From IMG/VR virus record IMGVR_UViG_3300020436_000114, positions 1-21,894 of that record: a stretch of DNA of 21,894 nucleotides; one strand, written 5' to 3'. Below are positions 8,231 to 21,894 of the stretch, one piece after another. Made by a program: the position numbers and the translations under genes. This DNA comes from a virus. The notes beneath the pieces were generated by a model. The model was not told the DNA's origin. It searched no databases and worked only from the letters and a program-made list of their open reading frames with translations. Position 1 is the first letter of the stretch; every line of letters starts with the position of its first letter.

Positions 8231-8563
8231 CTACCTTTTCTTTTTAGATTTAGCTTTTTTAGCTTTGTTTCTTTTACTTATTGCTTTTGCTTTTTTTCTA
8301 GCATCAGCTTTACTACTTGCACCCCAAGCATTTAAAGATAATAAAAGCCTAGTCTTTTCTCTCTTACCAGTTTTTTTATTTACCTTATACTCAGGACCTT
8401 TAGCTCCACCCATTCTAGCTAAAAAAGATGCTCTTCTAGGGTTATCACCACTTTTAACTGGTGGTCTTAATGTTCCACCTTTATAAGATGCTCTACCCTT
8501 AGCATTTAATCCACCCTTTGGATTCTTACCTGCTTTTCTTTGCCATGCTGGAGTTTTAGCCAT
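8231..8563 (-). CDS. DUF6321-like basic phage protein
   Basis: The ATG at 8563 gives 110 residues, beginning MAKTPAWQRKAGKNPKGGLN. A frame extension upstream would use a TTG (8578) and lie inside the previous gene, so I reject it. The blocks PAWQRKAGKNPKGGLNAKGR (4-23), DNPRRASFLARMGG and LSLNAWGASSKADARKKA match what I remember of the DUF6321 family in phages and large algal viruses. The assignment is from memory, and the family has no known function. The C-terminal 20 residues are almost all Lys/Arg/Ala. The TAATG overlap with the upstream gene indicates coupling. Confidence 0.75.
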   Translation of the reverse strand: MAKTPAWQRKAGKNPKGGLNAKGRASYKGGTLRPPVKSGDNPRRASFLARMGGAKGPEYKVNKKTGKREKTRLLLSLNAWGASSKADARKKAKAISKRNKAKKAKSKKKR

Positions 8564-8802
8564 TAATACAATATCCAATCACTTGCTATGTCATTCCAAT
8601 CTTTATATCTAGTTCTATTAGTATCTTTTTTTACAACTTCAAACTCTTCATGATTATAACACCAAAGCATTGTACTATCTTCATTAAAGTGTAGTATTCT
8701 ATTGTAAAAATGTTTTTCGCCATTCTGATCTTGTATATCCATACTACCTACTCCATTACAACTTAAAGAAAGTAATATAGGTATAGTTAATCTCTTAAGC
8801 AT
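8563..8802 (-). CDS. Small protein with N-terminal signal or lipoprotein-like segment
   Basis: I place the start at the ATG at 8802 (79 residues), which overlaps the tail-fibre stop by 8 bases. The GTG at 8826 lies deeper inside the fibre gene. The N-terminus MLKRLTIPILLSLSCNGVGS has Lys/Arg, a short hydrophobic core and a cysteine at about 15, as in a short signal peptide or weak lipobox. LSLSC is not an ideal lipobox. The rest is hydrophilic and aromatic (TMLWCYNHEEFEVV, RYKDWNDIASDWILY). If exported it could be an outer-membrane or periplasmic factor such as a superinfection or spanin-like lipoprotein. This is speculative. Confidence 0.65.
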   Translation of the reverse strand: MLKRLTIPILLSLSCNGVGSMDIQDQNGEKHFYNRILHFNEDSTMLWCYNHEEFEVVKKDTNRTRYKDWNDIASDWILY

Positions 8803-9904
8803 TTTCAAGAGCAGTAACCTTAACACTTAATTCTTGAATAGCTTTAATCATTGGAGCAATAAACTCTGAATATCTTAATCCTAGATTACCACTACCTCCA
8901 CCAGCAGATGGGTCTATATATCCAGCAAAGTCTTGTGTTGCTACAGAAAGTTCATCTAATGTTGCTTTAACATCTTGTGCAATTAAGCCATAATGTTTTC
9001 TAGTATGAACAATTTCAGCATGTTTTACATCACCAGCTTTTTTATTATCATTACCTGTTGGTTCGCCATCCTCATATTTTTGCTCAGGAGTATTTTTCCA
9101 TTTAAAACTTTTAGGTTTTAATTTATTAATAAAAGATAATCCTAAAGATGAATCAGCAATATTTTCTTTTAAGTCTTCATCAGAGGTTTGTATTGTACTA
9201 TTAGTAGCATAAATATCATTCCACCTATAACTACCTGTTCCTAAATTTTTAGCATCATCTGTATTTGGATACCATTGAGAACCATCCCAAATAACATTTT
9301 CACTTTGAGCGTGAAGATAATTGCTAGATGTAGCTATACTAAAAATACTTACAGTAGTTCCGTATATATATTGATGATTACTAGTATCATAAAAATATAA
9401 TCTTCCTGAAGCAGAACTTGAACCAACCCTTGGTATTAATATATTATTATCAGAATACATACACAATACTTCAGTATGTGAATTGTCTCCATCAGTTGTA
9501 AAAAACTTTAAATCTGTTCCATTTTCACTTGCACTCCATCCAGCAGAGCAAATAGCTTGTATTGATGCACCTACAATAAGATTATTTGAAGCATCTTCTG
9601 CTCCTAAGAATTCAATTATTCCTAATCTGTGAGTGTCTGCCATAGCAGCCCCATCATCTGTTATAAGCTGTAAACCAGCTCCTGCACTTGTACTACTAGC
9701 TGTTGATGTTTGTATTTTAAACCCAGGATTTGCTAATGCACCAATAATACCTGCACTTGTTGTTGCAAGTTGTAATGCAAAAGTAGTACCATTATCACCA
9801 TCTTTTACATTAACTAAAGTACTAGTATTACCTCCTCCATCTCTATCTACATGCAATAGTTGTTCATAACTATCTGCTATTGTTTGTCCTGTTAAAGCTG
9901 CCAT
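8795..9904 (-). CDS. Tail fibre/spike with C-terminal S74 intramolecular chaperone
   Basis: The protein has 369 residues, with a GGAG ribosome site and ATG start. Residues 1-60 (ALTGQTIADSYEQLLHVD, then DGDNGTTFALQLA) form the N-terminal module I recall from marine phage fibres, probably the virion-binding part. The middle is beta-rich. From about 225 the peptidase S74/endosialidase chaperone domain is clear: RWNDIYATNSTIQTSDEDLKENI, with S241 and K246 as the expected Ser-Lys pair for self-cleavage just before S241. HYGLIAQDVKATLDEL and the ending coiled coil IKAIQELSVKVTALEN follow. The chaperone trimerises the fibre and is then released. The fibre is short, in keeping with receptor binding by a podovirus. 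Confidence 0.9.
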   Translation of the reverse strand: MAALTGQTIADSYEQLLHVDRDGGGNTSTLVNVKDGDNGTTFALQLATTSAGIIGALANPGFKIQTSTASSTSAGAGLQLITDDGAAMADTHRLGIIEFLGAEDASNNLIVGASIQAICSAGWSASENGTDLKFFTTDGDNSHTEVLCMYSDNNILIPRVGSSSASGRLYFYDTSNHQYIYGTTVSIFSIATSSNYLHAQSENVIWDGSQWYPNTDDAKNLGTGSYRWNDIYATNSTIQTSDEDLKENIADSSLGLSFINKLKPKSFKWKNTPEQKYEDGEPTGNDNKKAGDVKHAEIVHTRKHYGLIAQDVKATLDELSVATQDFAGYIDPSAGGGSGNLGLRYSEFIAPMIKAIQELSVKVTALENA

Positions 9905-10049: not shown

Positions 10050-10394
10050 TTATGGTGCAAAGTAAATAACTACTTTGTCTCCTCCTGTTTGTAATGTTAG
10101 GTTTAACCATCTACCATATATAGTTACACCTTTAGGAAAGGTATCACTATTTGCAACAGTTGCACCATTTGTACCAGGTGCTGCTGCAGTTGTTCCATAA
10201 TGGAAACTTGTTGATTCAGGTGTAAGAGTAGCAAACTCTACATCTGTTAACATTGTTATAGCAACAATAACTGAACCTGTTGGTGGGGTGTATGCACTTG
10301 TAGTATCTGTATATGCTGCTCCAGTTTGACCTAAAGCAATATTTTGTGCTTCAACTACTGTGTAATTTTGAGCTGAACTTTTTCCAATAGCCAT
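10050..10394 (-). CDS. Small beta-rich virion protein, decoration-like
   Basis: A 114-residue protein with an ATG start and a strong AAGGAG site. It is rich in Thr, Ala and Val with alternating beta pattern. The block GSVIVAITMLTDVEFATLTPE (about 60-80) and the later FPKGVTIYGRWLNLTLQTGG are ones I recall from short structural-type proteins of cyanophages and other marine phages. It has no charge clusters, membrane segment or catalytic motif. A capsid decoration or small tail protein is likely from composition and place in the structural block. An upstream hairpin (10416-10451) may affect its transcript. Confidence 0.75.
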   Translation of the reverse strand: MAIGKSSAQNYTVVEAQNIALGQTGAAYTDTTSAYTPPTGSVIVAITMLTDVEFATLTPESTSFHYGTTAAAPGTNGATVANSDTFPKGVTIYGRWLNLTLQTGGDKVVIYFAP

Positions 10395-10415
10395 TTTCTT
10401 TCTCCTTGTTTATCG

Positions 10416-10451
10416 TATGCCTTTCCGTGCAAGAAATTTCACATGGGCATA
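10416..10451. other. Inverted repeat in the gap before the decoration-like gene
   Basis: TATGCC at 10416-10421 pairs with GGCATA at 10446-10451, with a GTG/CAC inner pairing possible. The heptamer TATCGTA also occurs as a direct repeat at 10411-10417 and 10450-10456, flanking the element. There is no T-run on the minus strand after it, so it is not a standard terminator. It may be an RNA processing or stabilising hairpin upstream of the ribosome site of the next gene. Confidence 0.35.
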
Positions 10452-10456
10452 TCGTA

Positions 10457-10552
10457 TTAACTTGCTTCTGTGTATTCAGATGTTTCTGTCATAGTAGTAG
10501 TTGATACCACAACTTCTGTTATTGTTGCTGTAGATATTACTACTTCTGTCAT
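10457..10552 (-). CDS. Possible 31-residue Thr/Val-rich microprotein
   Basis: The frame starts at an ATG that overlaps the previous stop as ATGA and encodes MTEVVISTATITEVVVSTTT followed by MTETSEYTEAS. It contains an internal near-repeat (TEVVIST / TEVVVST), alternates polar and beta-branched residues, and has no Lys or Arg, unlike the other microproteins here. The coupling and the lack of any other gene in this gap support it weakly. It is short enough to be chance. If real it could be a beta-strand-forming virion peptide. Confidence 0.4.
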   Translation of the reverse strand: MTEVVISTATITEVVVSTTTMTETSEYTEAS

Positions 10553-10983
10553 TCCTCATCTCTATCTCTTGTGCTATGTACTGTTGGTTCAAAACCTTGT
10601 AGCTTAATAACTGTTTTTTGAACTCTTCCAGTATTAGCATATCTTTTTCCTTCTATAACGCCTAAATTATATTGACGTTCCCAATAACTTGCAACTTGTA
10701 AAGTTTGTGGATTTAATTCATATCCTCTTTGAATAGCCTTAGCTACAATTGCATGTCTAAATTCTTCTGGAATATCTGGTTCTTCAGTATATCCTGTTGT
10801 TGTATTTGTAGTTCCTGTATCAGCAGAAACAAATTTATTAGGTCTTTTAACTGCAAATATAGTTACAGTTTTAACTTCATCTGGTGAATTATAAGTTGTT
10901 GCTGTATCGCCAACAGATCGTTTAACAATTGCTATTGCATCTCTTTCTACATAATATGCAAAATTACGTTGACTACTTGGCAT
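10549..10983 (-). CDS. Connector/adaptor protein, C-terminal half of a split gene
   Basis: A 144-residue protein beginning MPSSQRNFAYYVERDAIAIV, then a variable beta region, then DIPEEFRHAIVAKAIQRGYE (about 91-110) and SYWERQYNLGVIEGKRYANT. In phage head-tail adaptor proteins I recall a 'YYIEGDRLAIVE' strand in the middle and an 'LPSQFHEALVYKAIADGYK' helix near the end, in the same order. This protein therefore looks like the C-terminal half only, with the N-terminal half encoded at 11131-11400. The two halves are in the same reading frame, separated by a microprotein gene in another frame and by several in-frame stops. A connector role is likely; whether the halves assemble together is inference. 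Confidence 0.65.
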   Translation of the reverse strand: MPSSQRNFAYYVERDAIAIVKRSVGDTATTYNSPDEVKTVTIFAVKRPNKFVSADTGTTNTTTGYTEEPDIPEEFRHAIVAKAIQRGYELNPQTLQVASYWERQYNLGVIEGKRYANTGRVQKTVIKLQGFEPTVHSTRDRDEE

Positions 10984-18442: not shown

Positions 18443-19191
18443 TAAATCTCAGTTTTTCGTTGAGCAATCATCTTCTTTTCTTCAGTTTCAATCTTATCTG
18501 CTATCTGATTAGTCATATCTATCTGCAATGTATCTGTTGTAATCTTTTTATTAGGTTTCATTTCTAACATATCTACTAAATTCTCTGCAGCACGTAGCAT
18601 ATTTGAAACATCTTCTTTATTTTCTGCTATATCTATAGATTTTCTAATGACATCTAGTACAAATCCTCTATTTATACCTTTAGATGCTAGTACTTCCTTC
18701 ATTTTTTCTTCTACCATTTGTTTTACTACCTTTTCTTTAAATAATCTTTTAGCTGTAGCTGCAGGTTTTTTCTCATCACCCCTATATATTGTACCTATTT
18801 CTTCCCAATCTACCTTTTTACCTGCAAATATTTTAGATACGTATGCATTTACTGCATTTTTAGTACGAGTTTTACCTGCTTCACGTTCTTGCCAACTTTT
18901 TGGCTTAACCATAGAGTAGATACCTGCATCTCTATTAGGTTCATATAATAATTTAGAGGTTGGTGATACCCATTGTATACCACAGGTAAGTTTTATTAAA
19001 CGTTTTACTTTACCTTTTGAATCTTTATAAGTTGTTCTATCTAAACATTGGGCTACATATCCATCATCTGTTTCTGCCCAACCATCTTTCCATGCTTGTT
19101 TCCAATGCACAGAGTAAGGATGATTCTCATCTTTTTTAAATACAGTAAACTTTTGTACTTTATTATCTACTCTTCTTGTTATTGTTTCCAT
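18442..19191 (-). CDS. Terminase small subunit with extra N-terminal domain
   Basis: I choose the ATG at 19191 (249 residues, METITRRVDNK...); a GTG extension to 19230 would encode only an AT-tract peptide. The C-terminal half has the small-terminase layout: FKEKVVKQMVEEKMKEVLAS, a GINRGFVLDVIRKSIDIA helix, then NMLRAAENLVDMLEM and a basic tail. The N-terminal about 100 residues (WKQAWKDGWAETDDGYVAQC, then a beta pattern with RLIKLTCGIQWVS) form an additional domain. It directly precedes the large subunit. It should recognise the packaging site and regulate the large subunit. Its ribosome site is weak. Confidence 0.8.
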   Translation of the reverse strand: METITRRVDNKVQKFTVFKKDENHPYSVHWKQAWKDGWAETDDGYVAQCLDRTTYKDSKGKVKRLIKLTCGIQWVSPTSKLLYEPNRDAGIYSMVKPKSWQEREAGKTRTKNAVNAYVSKIFAGKKVDWEEIGTIYRGDEKKPAATAKRLFKEKVVKQMVEEKMKEVLASKGINRGFVLDVIRKSIDIAENKEDVSNMLRAAENLVDMLEMKPNKKITTDTLQIDMTNQIADKIETEEKKMIAQRKTEI

Positions 19192-19204
19192 ATATGTAGG
19201 GATT

Positions 19205-19227
19205 AATATATATATATTATATATATA
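19205..19227. repeat. Alternating AT tract upstream of terminase
   Basis: A 23-base run made only of A and T, almost perfectly alternating, including a TATAAT on the minus strand (19221-19216). It lies in the leader of the terminase small subunit gene beside the palindrome at 19229-19264. It could be a late -10 region with no convincing -35, or an easily melted segment. Confidence 0.5.
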
Positions 19228-19228
19228 C

Positions 19229-19264
19229 ACTAGTAATACATTACCTATGTATTACATTACTAGT
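19229..19264. promoter_or_regulatory. Nested inverted repeats before the packaging genes
   Basis: Two perfect 9-base inverted repeats overlap: ACTAGTAAT (19229-19237) with ATTACTAGT (19256-19264), and GTAATACAT (19233-19241) with ATGTATTAC (19247-19255). They cover the stop codon of the 66-residue gene and lie just upstream of the minus-strand AT tract and terminase. As DNA this is a candidate operator. As RNA it could fold in two exclusive ways, and on the plus strand it is followed by TTTTT, as in a terminator. Confidence 0.5.
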
Positions 19265-19460
19265 TTTTCTCCTTATTCTTTTTTAATGTTAACTTTTGTT
19301 TCACGATCTCGTGTATAATTTCTTTTTCAGCTTGATAATATTGGTAATCTTCTAAGAATACTTCCATAGCTTTATCTATCTCTGCTTGTGTAGTATAATC
19401 TTCTTCCCATTTACCAGTTGTAGCATTAAATACCTCATATTTTACTTTTTTCATAGCCAT
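19260..19460 (-). CDS. Small acidic/basic protein, first gene of the leftward operon
   Basis: A 66-residue protein: KKVKYEVFNATTGKWEEDYT, then a helical TQAEIDKAMEVFLEDYQYYQ and a Lys-rich end. There are two nearby ATG starts (19460, 19454) and an AAGG element further up. It has no cysteines or membrane segment. It is the first minus-strand gene left of the divergent region, so it should be transcribed first among leftward genes, which would suit a regulator or early protein. I recognise no DNA-binding motif and cannot name it. Confidence 0.7.
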   Translation of the reverse strand: MAMKKVKYEVFNATTGKWEEDYTTQAEIDKAMEVFLEDYQYYQAEKEIIHEIVKQKLTLKKNKEKN

Positions 19461-19547
19461 GTAATAATATAACCTTTTTATATTTTAACTGCAAGTGGAG
19501 TGATGAAGTTTCAAAATTTACATTAAAATGTGTGTGAGAGATGTTTA

Positions 19548-19579
19548 CGTTACCCACTCCCCTTCGGTTCGTGGGTACG
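19548..19579. promoter_or_regulatory. Inverted repeat TACCCAC/GTGGGTA
   Basis: TACCCAC (19551-19557) is an exact inverted match of GTGGGTA (19571-19577), extended by CG on both sides with one unpaired T at 19550. The 13-base spacer contains CTTCGG, the sequence of a very stable RNA tetraloop. It lies just upstream of the rightward promoter, so as DNA it could be an activator or repressor site. It would be in RNA only from a leftward transcript or from a start further upstream. Confidence 0.5.
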
Positions 19580-19581
19580 AC

Positions 19582-19599
19582 TTTTCAACAAGTTGAAAA
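19582..19599. promoter_or_regulatory. Perfect 8-base palindrome overlapping the -35 box
   Basis: TTTTCAAC and GTTGAAAA are exact inverted repeats separated by AA. The right arm contains the TTGAAA -35 hexamer of the rightward promoter. A dimeric protein bound here would block RNA polymerase, so this is a good candidate operator. Confidence 0.55.
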
Positions 19600-19620
19600 C
19601 TCTTGTTTGTGTGTTACAAT
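19593..19620 (+). promoter_or_regulatory. Rightward sigma70-type promoter
   Basis: TTGAAA (19593-19598) and TACAAT (19615-19620) each match the sigma70 consensus at five of six positions, with a 16-base spacer. Transcription would start near 19627, just before the AGGAGG ribosome site (19636-19641) and the ATG at 19650. It is the best promoter in the window and probably drives the rightward small genes. Confidence 0.6.
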
Positions 19621-19649
19621 TTATTAATATTAATTAGGAGGTCATCATT

Positions 19650-19823
19650 ATGACTGTTAATCACAAATCTTTCACTATCAAAGTTCCATTCATAGAGGGA
19701 TTCTTCTCTTTCTTAAGTAAAGCAATACGTGTATTGTTTATCACTTCAGGTAAGACAATCTCTTCAGTTCCTACAGCGTTCGACCACGTTGTAAAACTAT
19801 CCAAGTCTGAATGGAATAAATAA
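19650..19823 (+). CDS. 57-residue protein, first gene of the rightward region
   Basis: The frame has a perfect AGGAGG ribosome site 8 bases before its ATG. It begins MTVNHKSFTIKVPFIEGFFS and continues with an amphipathic hydrophobic stretch (FLSKAIRVLFITSG, about 21-34) before a polar tail ending SKSEWNK. A single amphipathic helix could touch membrane, but it is too polar for a clear span. It is followed by an intrinsic terminator at 19834. As the first product of the strongest promoter it is probably made early and in quantity. I do not recognise the family. Confidence 0.8.
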   Translation: MTVNHKSFTIKVPFIEGFFSFLSKAIRVLFITSGKTISSVPTAFDHVVKLSKSEWNK

Positions 19824-19833
19824 TCCATACAAT

Positions 19834-19872
19834 AGAGAGGGAGTTACTAAAGTAACTCTCTCTTATTTTTGT
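19834..19872 (+). terminator. Intrinsic terminator after the first rightward gene
   Basis: GAGTTACT (19841-19848) pairs with AGTAACTC (19851-19858), extended by AGAGAG/CTCTCT outside one unpaired base, followed by TTATTTTTG. The tail CTCTCTTATTTTTGT is shared base for base with the linkers at 20498 and 21055. Confidence 0.8.
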
Positions 19873-19908
19873 ATTATTTTTTTAAAAACAAAAGTAAAGG
19901 GAAATATT

Positions 19909-20106
19909 ATGTCAAAAGTAAAAGAAATTAGTCCAGCAGAGTGGGTACGTATTCAAGATAAATTAATGAGGGAAGTCCCAATACATGAGGTAGAATGTAA
20001 ATCTTGTGATAATTGGCTGTGTCTAAATCGTTCTGATGACCCAGACTATTGTGATGGACCAGAATATAGCGATTCTATATTTGGTGGGTTAAATAGAATA
20101 GATTAG
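19909..20106 (+). CDS. Small protein with C-x2-C-x4-C-x9-C motif (copy 1)
   Basis: A 65-residue acidic protein with an AAGGG ribosome element and ATG. The N-terminal part (ISPAEWVRIQDKLMREVPIH) is helical. Cysteines C30, C33, C38 and C48 form C-x2-C-x4-C-x9-C with the core CKSCDNWLCLN...YCDGP, a likely single zinc site. The gene at 21098 has the same four cysteines at the same spacing and shares the CLN, P and CD residues, although its N-terminus differs. Small zinc proteins made early often bind host proteins or nucleic acids, but here this is inference. It sits in its own cassette, closed by a terminator at 20115. Confidence 0.8.
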   Translation: MSKVKEISPAEWVRIQDKLMREVPIHEVECKSCDNWLCLNRSDDPDYCDGPEYSDSIFGGLNRID

Positions 20107-20114
20107 AATAAATT

Positions 20115-20145
20115 AGAGAGGCATTAGTTTGTCTCTCTTTTTTTT
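20115..20145 (+). terminator. Intrinsic terminator, GAGAGGCA type
   Basis: AGAGAGGCA (20115-20123) pairs with TGTCTCTCT (20130-20138), nine pairs including one G-T, with a 6-base loop, followed by a run of seven T. It belongs to the same series as the hairpins at 20479 and 21300. Confidence 0.85.
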
Positions 20146-20180
20146 GTATGTTTAATTAAATATAATAAAGGAGAAATCTT

Positions 20181-20465
20181 ATGTATTATGCAGACAAATA
20201 TTGTCAGTTCGAAAAAGTATTTGGTGAATCCATTGATGATGAGGATTCATATACAATAACTGGAAATGTAATAGAGTTCCATAAATTAACACGTGAATTA
20301 ATTGTTACCAATAAGAGATATACAGTTAAAGGTGTCTTGTGTAAAGACATATTTCGTTATCGTCAAGGAGAACTTATACAAAATTGTTTTCCATACTTAT
20401 CAGTAACAGATCGTGAGTTCCTTATAAGTGGTCAAGTTGATGAACTGGAGGAAAATTATTTATGA
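20181..20465 (+). CDS. Conserved-type early phage protein with DREFLISG motif
   Basis: A 94-residue protein with GGAG ten bases before the ATG. The first half is beta-rich and acidic (YTITGNVIEFHKLTRELIVT). The C-terminal part FRYRQGELIQNCFPYLSVTD then REFLISG (58-83) matches a block I know from many small unannotated phage proteins ('G..IQ..FP.LS..EREFLISG'), usually among early or accessory genes. The function of that group is unknown to me. Its stop overlaps an ATG (TTATGA) that opens a 20-codon frame running into the following terminator. It forms a single-gene cassette. Confidence 0.8.
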   Translation: MYYADKYCQFEKVFGESIDDEDSYTITGNVIEFHKLTRELIVTNKRYTVKGVLCKDIFRYRQGELIQNCFPYLSVTDREFLISGQVDELEENYL

Positions 20466-20479
20466 GAGAAATAATCATA
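20459..20479 (+). repeat. 21-base direct repeat, copy 1 (gene end/linker junction)
   Basis: TTTATGAGAGAAATAATCAT plus A is found exactly here and again at 20723-20743. In both places it covers the end of a gene (TTA TGA) and the start of the linker. An exact match of this length so close by suggests duplication of a cassette border. Confidence 0.9.
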
Positions 20480-20510
20480 AGGGAGGCATTCATTTGCCTC
20501 TCTTATTTTT
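20479..20510 (+). terminator. Intrinsic terminator, GGGAGGCA type
   Basis: AAGGGAGGCA (20479-20488) pairs with TGCCTCTCTT (20495-20504), ten pairs with one G-T, 6-base loop, then ATTTTT. It closely resembles the hairpins at 20115 and 21300. Confidence 0.85.
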
Positions 20511-20552
20511 GTGTTTCAATTTAATAATTAAATAATAGGAGAAATATATATT

Positions 20553-20729
20553 ATGCTATATATATTAAGTTTAATAATGTTTATGTCTGGTTTCGGTGGT
20601 GGTTATTTTTATATCTTATATAAATATGAAACTATGGTAAAAAACTATAATACGATAGTTAATGATTATACAAAATTGCAAAATAGTTACGATAAACTTG
20701 CAAAAGATTTTCGTGAGGTTTGTTTATGA
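20553..20729 (+). CDS. 58-residue single-span membrane protein
   Basis: It has an AGGAG ribosome site 11 bases before the ATG. Residues about 2-22 (LYILSLIMFMSGFGGGYFYI) form one membrane helix with a glycine triplet. A polar helical tail of 35 residues with heptad-like spacing (VNDYTKLQNSYDKLAKDFRE) follows. It has the form of small phage inner-membrane proteins that block superinfection or alter host membrane functions, but no known family is recognised. The stop overlaps an ATG (ATGA) that opens a 22-codon hydrophobic frame. The last bases form the second copy of the 21-base repeat. Confidence 0.75.
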   Translation: MLYILSLIMFMSGFGGGYFYILYKYETMVKNYNTIVNDYTKLQNSYDKLAKDFREVCL

Positions 20730-20743
20730 GAGAAATAATCATA
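20723..20743 (+). repeat. 21-base direct repeat, copy 2
   Basis: Identical to 20459-20479. Here the sequence after the repeat departs completely from copy 1: the GGGAGGCA terminator is missing, and the CTCTCTTATTTTTGT tail that should follow appears only at 21055. Confidence 0.9.
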
Positions 20744-20794
20744 TGGACAATAGCATCCCTTATTGGGGTGCTTTTGTTTTTACAATCTTTATAA
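20726..20794 (+). CDS. Possible 22-residue hydrophobic peptide
   Basis: The ATG overlaps the upstream stop as ATGA and the frame encodes MREIIIWTIASLIGVLLFLQ then SL. This is one charged N-terminal turn followed by a complete membrane-spanning helix. Coupling with another membrane protein supports it. Against it, the same ATG in copy 1 of the repeat leads to a non-hydrophobic frame, and a terminator-like hairpin (20752-20781) is built into the frame. It could be a real micro-membrane protein or chance. Confidence 0.4.
   Translation: MREIIIWTIASLIGVLLFLQSL
20752..20781 (+). terminator. Intrinsic terminator after the membrane-protein gene
   Basis: AGCATCCC (20752-20759) pairs with GGGGTGCT (20765-20772), eight pairs with one G-T, 5-base loop, followed by TTTGTTTTT. 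It is unrelated in sequence to the other cassette terminators. Confidence 0.7.
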
Positions 20795-21052
20795 AAAAAA
20801 GAAAGGTGTAGACACTTGTTGTGTCTACCCTTGGTCATTAAGAATGAAGGCAATGTGTGCACCCTTGTTGTGTGCACTTAGAAGATTTGTTCTCTCTTTC
20901 ATAAAAGTAATGTGTGTAAAACTTTCAGTTTTACCCATTTTTATTCACTCATTCTATTTTAAAATCTTAAACTCACTACGTTCGTTTATGATTTTTGCCT
21001 TTGAAAACACAAAGTGTGTTTTCTTTTTGCCGAAGATTAAGAAAATCAATAT
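20795..21052. other. Hairpin-dense non-coding segment
   Basis: No convincing gene lies here. At least five stem-loops follow one another: 20808-20828 (GTAGACAC/GTGTCTAC, loop TTGTT), 20857-20877 (GTGCAC/GTGCAC around loop TTGTT), 20916-20934 (GTAAAAC/GTTTTAC, loop TTTCA), 20961-20995 (AAAATC-TAAAC/GTTTA-GATTTT) and 21003-21023 (GAAAACAC/GTGTTTTC). Four have 5-base loops. The first two share the 10-mer CTTGTTGTGT, and AATGTGTG precedes the second and third. The segment could be a structured RNA or a stack of terminators from lost cassettes. Confidence 0.6.
21003..21028 (+). terminator. Intrinsic terminator at the end of the hairpin segment
   Basis: GAAAACAC (21003-21010) pairs perfectly with GTGTTTTC (21016-21023), 5-base loop, followed at once by TTTTT. 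It has the complete form of a rightward intrinsic terminator, though no gene precedes it. Confidence 0.65.
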
Positions 21053-21097
21053 GTCTCTCTTATTTTTGTATTTTTTTTTAATCAAATTGGAGGAATT

Positions 21098-21292
21098 ATG
21101 TCTGATTTATATAACAAATTGGCTCAAATAATAAATGAGTTAGAAGAGGAAGAATCCAAATTATTTTATCTTCAAGAAGGTTTAACTAAAACCGAAATTG
21201 AAGATATGAAATGTAAAATTTGTGGTAATCTTTCTTGTCTCAATCAACCTGGTGTACCAAATGAATGTGATATATTAGAGTGGATTGATTAA
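21098..21292 (+). CDS. Small protein with C-x2-C-x4-C-x9-C motif (copy 2)
   Basis: A 64-residue acidic protein with TTGGAGG eight bases ahead of the ATG. Residues 3-36 form a Glu-rich helix (LYNKLAQIINELEEEESKLF). C39, C42, C47 and C57 give CKICGNLSCLN...ECDILE, with spacing identical to the gene at 19909 and the same CK-x-C-x-N-x2-CLN...P-x2-CD frame. The helical N-terminus is unrelated to the other copy, so the zinc module is shared while the partner-binding part differs. It lies in a cassette ended by a terminator at 21300. The function is unknown; zinc binding is inferred. Confidence 0.82.
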   Translation: MSDLYNKLAQIINELEEEESKLFYLQEGLTKTEIEDMKCKICGNLSCLNQPGVPNECDILEWID

Positions 21293-21299
21293 ACTAAAT

Positions 21300-21330
21300 G
21301 AGAGGCATTAATTTGCCTCTCTTTTTTTTT
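21300..21330 (+). terminator. Intrinsic terminator, GAGAGGCA type
   Basis: GAGAGGCA (21300-21307) pairs perfectly with TGCCTCTC (21314-21321), loop TTAATT, followed by nine T. It is near-identical to those at 20115 and 20479. Confidence 0.88.
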
Positions 21331-21340
21331 CATTGTTTAA

Positions 21341-21370
21341 ATGTTTATACTTATACCAAATGTTTTATAC
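21341..21370. repeat. Direct repeat ATGTTTATAC / ATGTTTTATAC
   Basis: ATGTTTATAC (21341-21350) recurs as ATGTTTTATAC (21360-21370), about two helical turns apart, with a further TTATAC at 21351. This lies in the 142-base gap before the last gene, which otherwise holds only the terminator and A- or T-runs. It may be a binding site or a weak promoter region for the next gene. Confidence 0.4.
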
Positions 21371-21434
21371 AAAAAAAATACATTCTCTTTTTTGTGTTTC
21401 TTATTTTAATAACTAAATAGAAAGGGATATTATT

Positions 21435-21758
21435 ATGTCCGAAAAAATGCTTATGGATTTATCCATAGAAGAACATCAAAGTGCTCAACAAGCACCAGAA
21501 AAAGATTATCAATTTTCAACACAAGATGAAAATGAGAATTGGAAATATTTTTCTAATGTAAAAGATGTTGAGGAAAATGATTTTTGTTTTCTACGTTTTG
21601 AAAAGGCTACTATAAGCCTTCGTGATGAAATAAATAATCAACTTAAATTAAAAAATTTAAGATTGTATAGTTATGAGGTATCACAAGGTAATCCACCAGC
21701 CATATCAAAAACAAAAGATGGCAGACAATCAATAAAGTATAAAGTTATTCCTTTATAA
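21435..21758 (+). CDS. 107-residue early-region protein of unknown function
   Basis: ATG start with AAAGGGAT upstream. The first 35 residues are acidic and Gln-rich, likely disordered (DLSIEEHQSAQQAPEKDYQF). Then follows a mixed domain with WKYFSNVKDVEENDFCFLRF, KATISLRDEINNQLKLKNLR and a C-terminal strand pattern RQSIKYKVIPL. It has a single cysteine and no membrane segment, and I recognise no motif. It is the last complete gene of the rightward series and is followed by a hairpin at 21800. It may be a host-interaction protein, as its neighbours seem to be, but that is only context. Confidence 0.75.
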   Translation: MSEKMLMDLSIEEHQSAQQAPEKDYQFSTQDENENWKYFSNVKDVEENDFCFLRFEKATISLRDEINNQLKLKNLRLYSYEVSQGNPPAISKTKDGRQSIKYKVIPL

Positions 21759-21799
21759 GTTTGTCTTTTTCCTTCCTCTCATTTGCCTTCCTCATTATG

Positions 21800-21848
21800 T
21801 TGGGTGTAATTCATTTTGCACCCAATATATCTTTCTCTTTTTTTTGTT
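21800..21848 (+). terminator. Terminator-like hairpin after the last gene
   Basis: TTGGGTG (21800-21806) pairs with CACCCAA (21819-21825) with a 12-base loop. A long T-run starts only after TATATCTTTCTC, so termination may be inefficient. Nothing further is recognisable between here and the right edge except T- and A-runs and a purine-rich AAAGAAAAAAGG that may lead into the next gene. Confidence 0.5.
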
Positions 21849-21894
21849 CTTTTTTTTTAAAGAAAAAAGGTGTTAAGAAACTCATACATTACTA

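Follow-up and report, generated by a model that had tools for sequence, protein, structure and literature searches.

A candidate noncoding RNA element kept among movable early gene cassettes of a phage

Comparison of three phage genomes suggests that positions 20795-21038 of the DNA analysed here encode a noncoding RNA element, about 245 bases long and on the plus strand, that is resident in a zone of early gene cassettes. We put the probability of this reading, which includes a transcription, processing and function that we infer, at roughly 0.5. Positions refer to the window, the whole stretch that was analysed (21,894 bases; IMG/VR record IMGVR_UViG_3300020436_000114, positions 1 to 21,894). 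The two relatives that carry the hairpin segment are L053 (IMGVR_UViG_3300037961_002688, which also comprises L001, L071 and L114-115; 36,105 bases) and L076 (IMGVR_UViG_3300009703_000234).

Results

The minus strand of the window carries the terminase (phrog_38), portal and major head genes, and from about 19650 small early genes (57-107 codons) run on the plus strand. Nearly all of these early genes end with a terminator-like hairpin, after which come a spacer and a ribosome-binding site, and 12 terminator-like sites are found in 19000-21894 where 0.9 are expected. Promoter-like sites number 11 against 17.5 expected by chance. The terminase is about 26% identical to those of the best-listed GenBank phages, which are not T4-like. 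IMG/VR holds 52 terminase relatives, down to about 71% identity; none was found in the genome_contigs collection, a DNA search for cultured relatives gave no match, and the closest relative of the phage is a 36-kb genome. Two observations stand apart from the hairpin segment. A stretch at 19498-19564 (AACTGCAAGTGGAGTGATGAAGTTTCAAAATTT...), beside the small terminase region, is kept in many distant relatives and is perhaps a regulatory site of a divergent promoter region. A single ORF of 3097 codons occupies L115 4576-13869 (IMGVR_UViG_3300037961_002688, 22576-31869) in a 36-kb phage genome.

Six hairpins, H1 to H6, can be read directly on the plus strand of the 311-base segment at 20744-21054, as a sequence-only reading of this DNA had described; the 5-base loops that it reported for most of them are present in H1-H3, whereas H4 and H6 close to 3-base loops. 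H1 (20752-20772) is terminator-like in the window and L053, and in L076 it is a 17-bp hairpin without a U tract. H2 (20808-20828; GTAGACAC-TTGTT-GTGTCTAC) is invariant in the three genomes. Its loop is identical to that of H3 (20857-20877; GTGCACCC-TTGTT-GTGTGCAC), which is perfect in L076, and the two hairpins resemble each other further, with CTTGTTGTGT in common, the same CAC-TTGTT-GTG top, and two stem positions that differ by matched changes (GTAGACAC versus GTGCACAC in L076). H4 (20916-20934; GTAAAACT-TTC-AGTTTTAC) and H5 (20961-20995) follow, and the row ends with H6 (21003-21023), which is terminator-like and has a T run.

Such stems are far more numerous than chance would give. The segment holds three perfect stems of at least 7 bp, whereas 1000 dinucleotide shuffles averaged 0.13 and never exceeded 2; other 311-base stretches of the window hold at most one each. 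A sliding-window fold scan of 18900-21894 finds 20701-20900 to be the most structured part (z -6.19). The 20744-21094 transcript has an MFE z of -5.74, with corresponding values of -4.98 and -9.74 in the two relatives, which bears out the earlier claim of a structured element. In 19000-21894 no Rfam covariance model matched at E = 1 or below, and L053 and L076 gave no relevant match; a tRNA and tmRNA search found nothing. The stretch from H1 to H2 shows no conserved promoter. The linkers pair with phage gene starts no better than shuffled sequences do, and no phage target emerges for them.

A conserved protein encoded across the segment would contradict a structured-element reading, and none spans it. 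An open frame of 122 codons (20763-21131) does cross the hairpins and reaches 119 codons in L053; a stop-free run of this length arises in 1 of 2000 shuffles. We reject protein coding because a 1-base deletion in L076 breaks the frame midway and because the codon changes between the window and L053 (four nonsynonymous, three synonymous) give no sign of protein selection. The stop-free run remains a minor oddity. The earlier statement that the segment holds no convincing gene is right for this frame and wrong for the first 51 bases, which belong to a small hydrophobic ORF of 22 codons on the plus strand (MREIIIWTIASLIGVLLFLQSL, 20726-20794) that also contains H1. This ORF is kept in L053 and L076 despite different preceding genes, and its ATG overlaps the stop of the gene before it, which is DREFLISG in L053 and the membrane-protein gene in the other two genomes.

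The same ORF bears on a 21-base repeat, TTTATGAGAGAAATAATCATA, which extends to 27 bases at 93% and whose copies, with the hairpin and tail that follow, are read directly where they had been reported. Copy 1 (20459-20479, plus strand) covers the last bases of the DREFLISG gene, stop included, and a vestigial small-ORF start (ATGAGAGAAATAATCATA), and GGGAGGCA...TGCCTCTCTTATTTTT comes after it; copy 2 (20723-20743, plus strand) contains the start of the intact ORF. In L053, the bases matching copy 1 continue into the intact ORF. The repeat is a copied start of the small membrane ORF, of which the window retains a truncated remnant behind DREFLISG. The linker tail, CTCTCTTATTTTTGT, occurs at 20498-20512, 21055-21069 and also 19858-19872.

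Both relatives contain the segment, at 97% identity in L053 and about 91% in L076. L053 matches the window at no less than 94% but lacks two blocks that L076 has and that we describe as movable gene cassettes, both on the plus strand. Cassette 1 (20480-20722) consists of a terminator hairpin, spacer, ribosome-binding site and 58-aa membrane-protein gene (20553-20729), and cassette 2 (21039 to about 21330) of the tail CTCTCTTATTTTTGT, a ribosome-binding site, the MSDLYNKL gene (21098-21292) and a terminator. The half-terminator tail at 21055-21069 moves with this downstream cassette. In L053, the DREFLISG gene, ending in ENYL*, leads directly to ATGAGAGAAATAATCATATGG and the hairpins; L053 6280-6594 corresponds to window 20724-21038, and this junction sets the 3' border of the element at 21038. 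L076 keeps the order of the window (membrane-protein gene, segment, MSDLYNKL gene), with a different gene replacing DREFLISG and joining, at ATAAGGGAGGCATTC, a linker 100% identical to that of the window over 72 bases. Because the cassettes are absent from L053 and the upstream gene is another one in L076, the hairpin segment is constant and the surrounding genes vary. On these alignments the segment appears to be the resident piece, with genes on either side that come and go.

Further carriers were sought in three ways. Scans for the patterns of H2, H6 and a 16-mer from a linker hit only L053 and L076, the remaining matches being unrelated; a covariance-model search of 25 records and 42 further loci returned only the three known carriers; and an exact search for H2 in bacterial and archaeal genomes found none.

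Conservation of the structure was judged solely on the 51 pairs of H1-H6, all of them in stems that form in the window. L053 has nine substitutions, none of them in stems (P 0.07). L076 has 30, four of them in stems, and one pair is broken compared to 7.1 expected (P 0.002). Random substitutions free of compensatory changes, which the sequence-only reading had named as evidence against itself, are not the pattern in these relatives, where substitutions avoid breaking stems. Pairing probability is near 1 in all three genomes for H1, H2, H4 and most of H5 and H6, and 0.5-1.0 for H3. On identical stems, the entire loops of H4 (TTC in the window, AAA in L076) and H6 (AAG or TTC) are replaced. H5 shows one double compensatory change relative to L076, from A-U to U-A, in an alignment that has gaps in H5, and one H3 mismatch and one H5 mismatch are paired in L076. 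Template switching, in the course of quasi-palindrome repair, is another way in which stems could be restored. With only three sequences to compare, the covariation does not reach significance, since 180 of 500 shuffles do as well. The three genomes have no global fold in common: a single multibranched fold with a closing stem, P1, and a stem P3 was considered and rejected, since P3 appears in the fold of L076 alone and P1 in none of the three.

Discussion

We favor a model in which the element would consist of local hairpins in series, H2 to H6, closely preceded by H1, with well-kept single-stranded linkers between them and the terminator-like H6 last. It would be transcribed along with the early genes, and a small RNA would most likely be released between H1 and H6, to act in trans or on its own transcript. 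The neighboring genes, each with its terminator, spacer and ribosome-binding site as a linker, would be gained or lost by recombination at or near these linkers. If the membrane-protein cassette arrived, a direction that we infer, the small-ORF start would have stayed on the DREFLISG gene and produced the 21-base repeat. This direct repeat around cassette 1 may also permit its precise loss, and gain in the window's line and loss in that of L053 are both possible.

The strongest alternative, possible yet clearly less probable, is a cis-acting intercistronic cluster, in which the hairpins serve as early-operon terminators, processing sites or mRNA-stabilizing structures and no separate RNA is made. 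H1 and H6 do score as terminators, a terminator-like hairpin follows nearly every early gene, and the hairpins are local rather than parts of one fold. However, H2-H5 have no clear terminator T runs, the linkers between hairpins are well kept, and one hairpin would be enough to terminate or stabilize a transcript, as it is elsewhere in the linkers of this region.

Substitution rates bear on a second alternative, that the segment is a drifting relic of deleted cassettes, made of orphan terminators and decayed genes. The segment is 92.4% identical to L076 and 96.7% to L053. For comparison, the MSDLYNKL gene next to it matches L076 at 90.8% of third codon positions, and the structural and terminase genes match L053 at about 97-99% of theirs. 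By these figures the segment does not clearly appear to evolve more slowly than its surroundings, and a rate near theirs is what a relic would show. Identity at fourfold sites is 77% for terminase and 71% for portal in a comparison with the contig L003, which comes from the sample that also yielded L076 and may be part of that phage; an exchange confined to the early region could account for the contrast with the segment in L076. The adjoining half-terminator tail and the long stop-free frame, which could be a former gene, also fit a relic. We nevertheless regard decay as improbable, because stems are retained while loops change and because the segment is in all three genomes though both of its neighbors vary.

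The sequence-only reading had proposed that a selfish or duplicated hairpin element was inserted into, and interrupts, a duplicated linker. The two repeat copies and the half-terminator tail of the window suggest as much, but L053 carries the segment with a single repeat copy, DREFLISG directly before it and neither cassette, and this makes insertion very unlikely. Neither an empty site, the uninterrupted linker that related phages were expected to show, nor a second copy of the segment occurs in any genome searched. Perfect palindromic arms and restored stems would also suit a DNA-level replication or packaging site that forms cruciforms, an idea we consider the least credible of all: three variable pairs, C-G to U-G in H1, G-C/G-U in P3 and G-U/A-U in outer H4, pair only as plus-strand G-U, leaving A-C mismatches on the other strand, and favor plus-strand RNA over DNA cruciforms.

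More distant relatives do not have the segment, and their early regions hold unrelated noncoding blocks that fold strongly. Blocks at z of -4 or below occur in 7 of the 12 loci examined, although these z-scores include terminators and genes shorter than 55 codons may hide in some blocks. In IMGVR_UViG_3300030328_001859 (L116), two such structured noncoding blocks lie at 8430-8830 and 10230-10790 (z -6.1 and -4.7), and parts of them are absent in the relatives L011, L015 and L038. Rfam gave no match for the structured blocks of relatives. These blocks suggest that RNA cassettes may be common beside protein cassettes in such regions. A broader proposal, which we offer as speculative and on balance doubtful, is that the early region of this lineage is a cassette array exchanging noncoding RNA genes as modules beside small protein genes, with the segment and the relatives' blocks belonging to a pool of undescribed host-manipulating phage RNAs.

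Two further features of the relatives were noted. Beyond the end of the window, a second conserved noncoding block of about 400-500 nt lies at about 7900-8340 in L053 and about 3150-3660 in L076. It has a closing stem, GAAATCATC/GATGATTTC, with a matched change (AAATAGG..CCTATTT to AAATAGA..TCTATTT), an extra hairpin in L076, a terminator-like end and no Rfam match. At about 7100, 7960 and 8870 of L116, linkers repeat a motif like TTCACACCCTTTTATAATC before the ribosome-binding site, a possible early promoter.

If transcribed, the element would represent an undescribed family of phage noncoding RNA in a lineage for which GenBank phages include no close isolate. Comparing the three genomes also gives a base-resolution view of small early genes entering or leaving a phage genome at stem-loop linkers. 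We consider the structured noncoding blocks of the relatives to be the part most worth following.

Several known systems offer comparisons. Like the segment, the ornate phage RNAs GOLLD and ROOL are structured and of unknown function; GOLLD members are often longer than 800 nt and multiple pseudoknots are predicted for ROOL (PMC12286853), whereas the segment is about 245 nt of simple hairpins and matches no Rfam model. The ICP1/PLE transcripts (PMC7567579), as well as c4 RNA of P1/P7 and other phage sRNAs (PMC12197685), are likewise noncoding, intergenic and phage-encoded. We found no sequence relation between these phage transcripts and the segment, and no complementarity to gene leaders here; unlike them, the segment is a putative transcript.

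The closest likeness is to the promoter-early stem-loops (PeSLs) of T4-type phages (Arbiol 2010, Comeau 2014, as cited in PMC4503421). PeSLs are stem-loop linkers between small early genes, and at these linkers genes are swapped between related phages (PMC4503421). Here, too, terminator-like stem-loops lie between the genes, and the genes between these motifs differ among related phages, L053 and L076 compared to the window. PeSLs are single stem-loops, in contrast to the 245-base hairpin array described here. We do not classify the linkers as PeSLs: the definition includes an early promoter, for which the scan gave no enrichment of promoter-like sites, and the phage, with its 36-kb relative and phrog_38 terminase, is not T4-like. 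By analogy, the cassette zone can still be called PeSL-like, and its neighboring cassettes may behave much as in the PeSL shuffling of T4-type phages.
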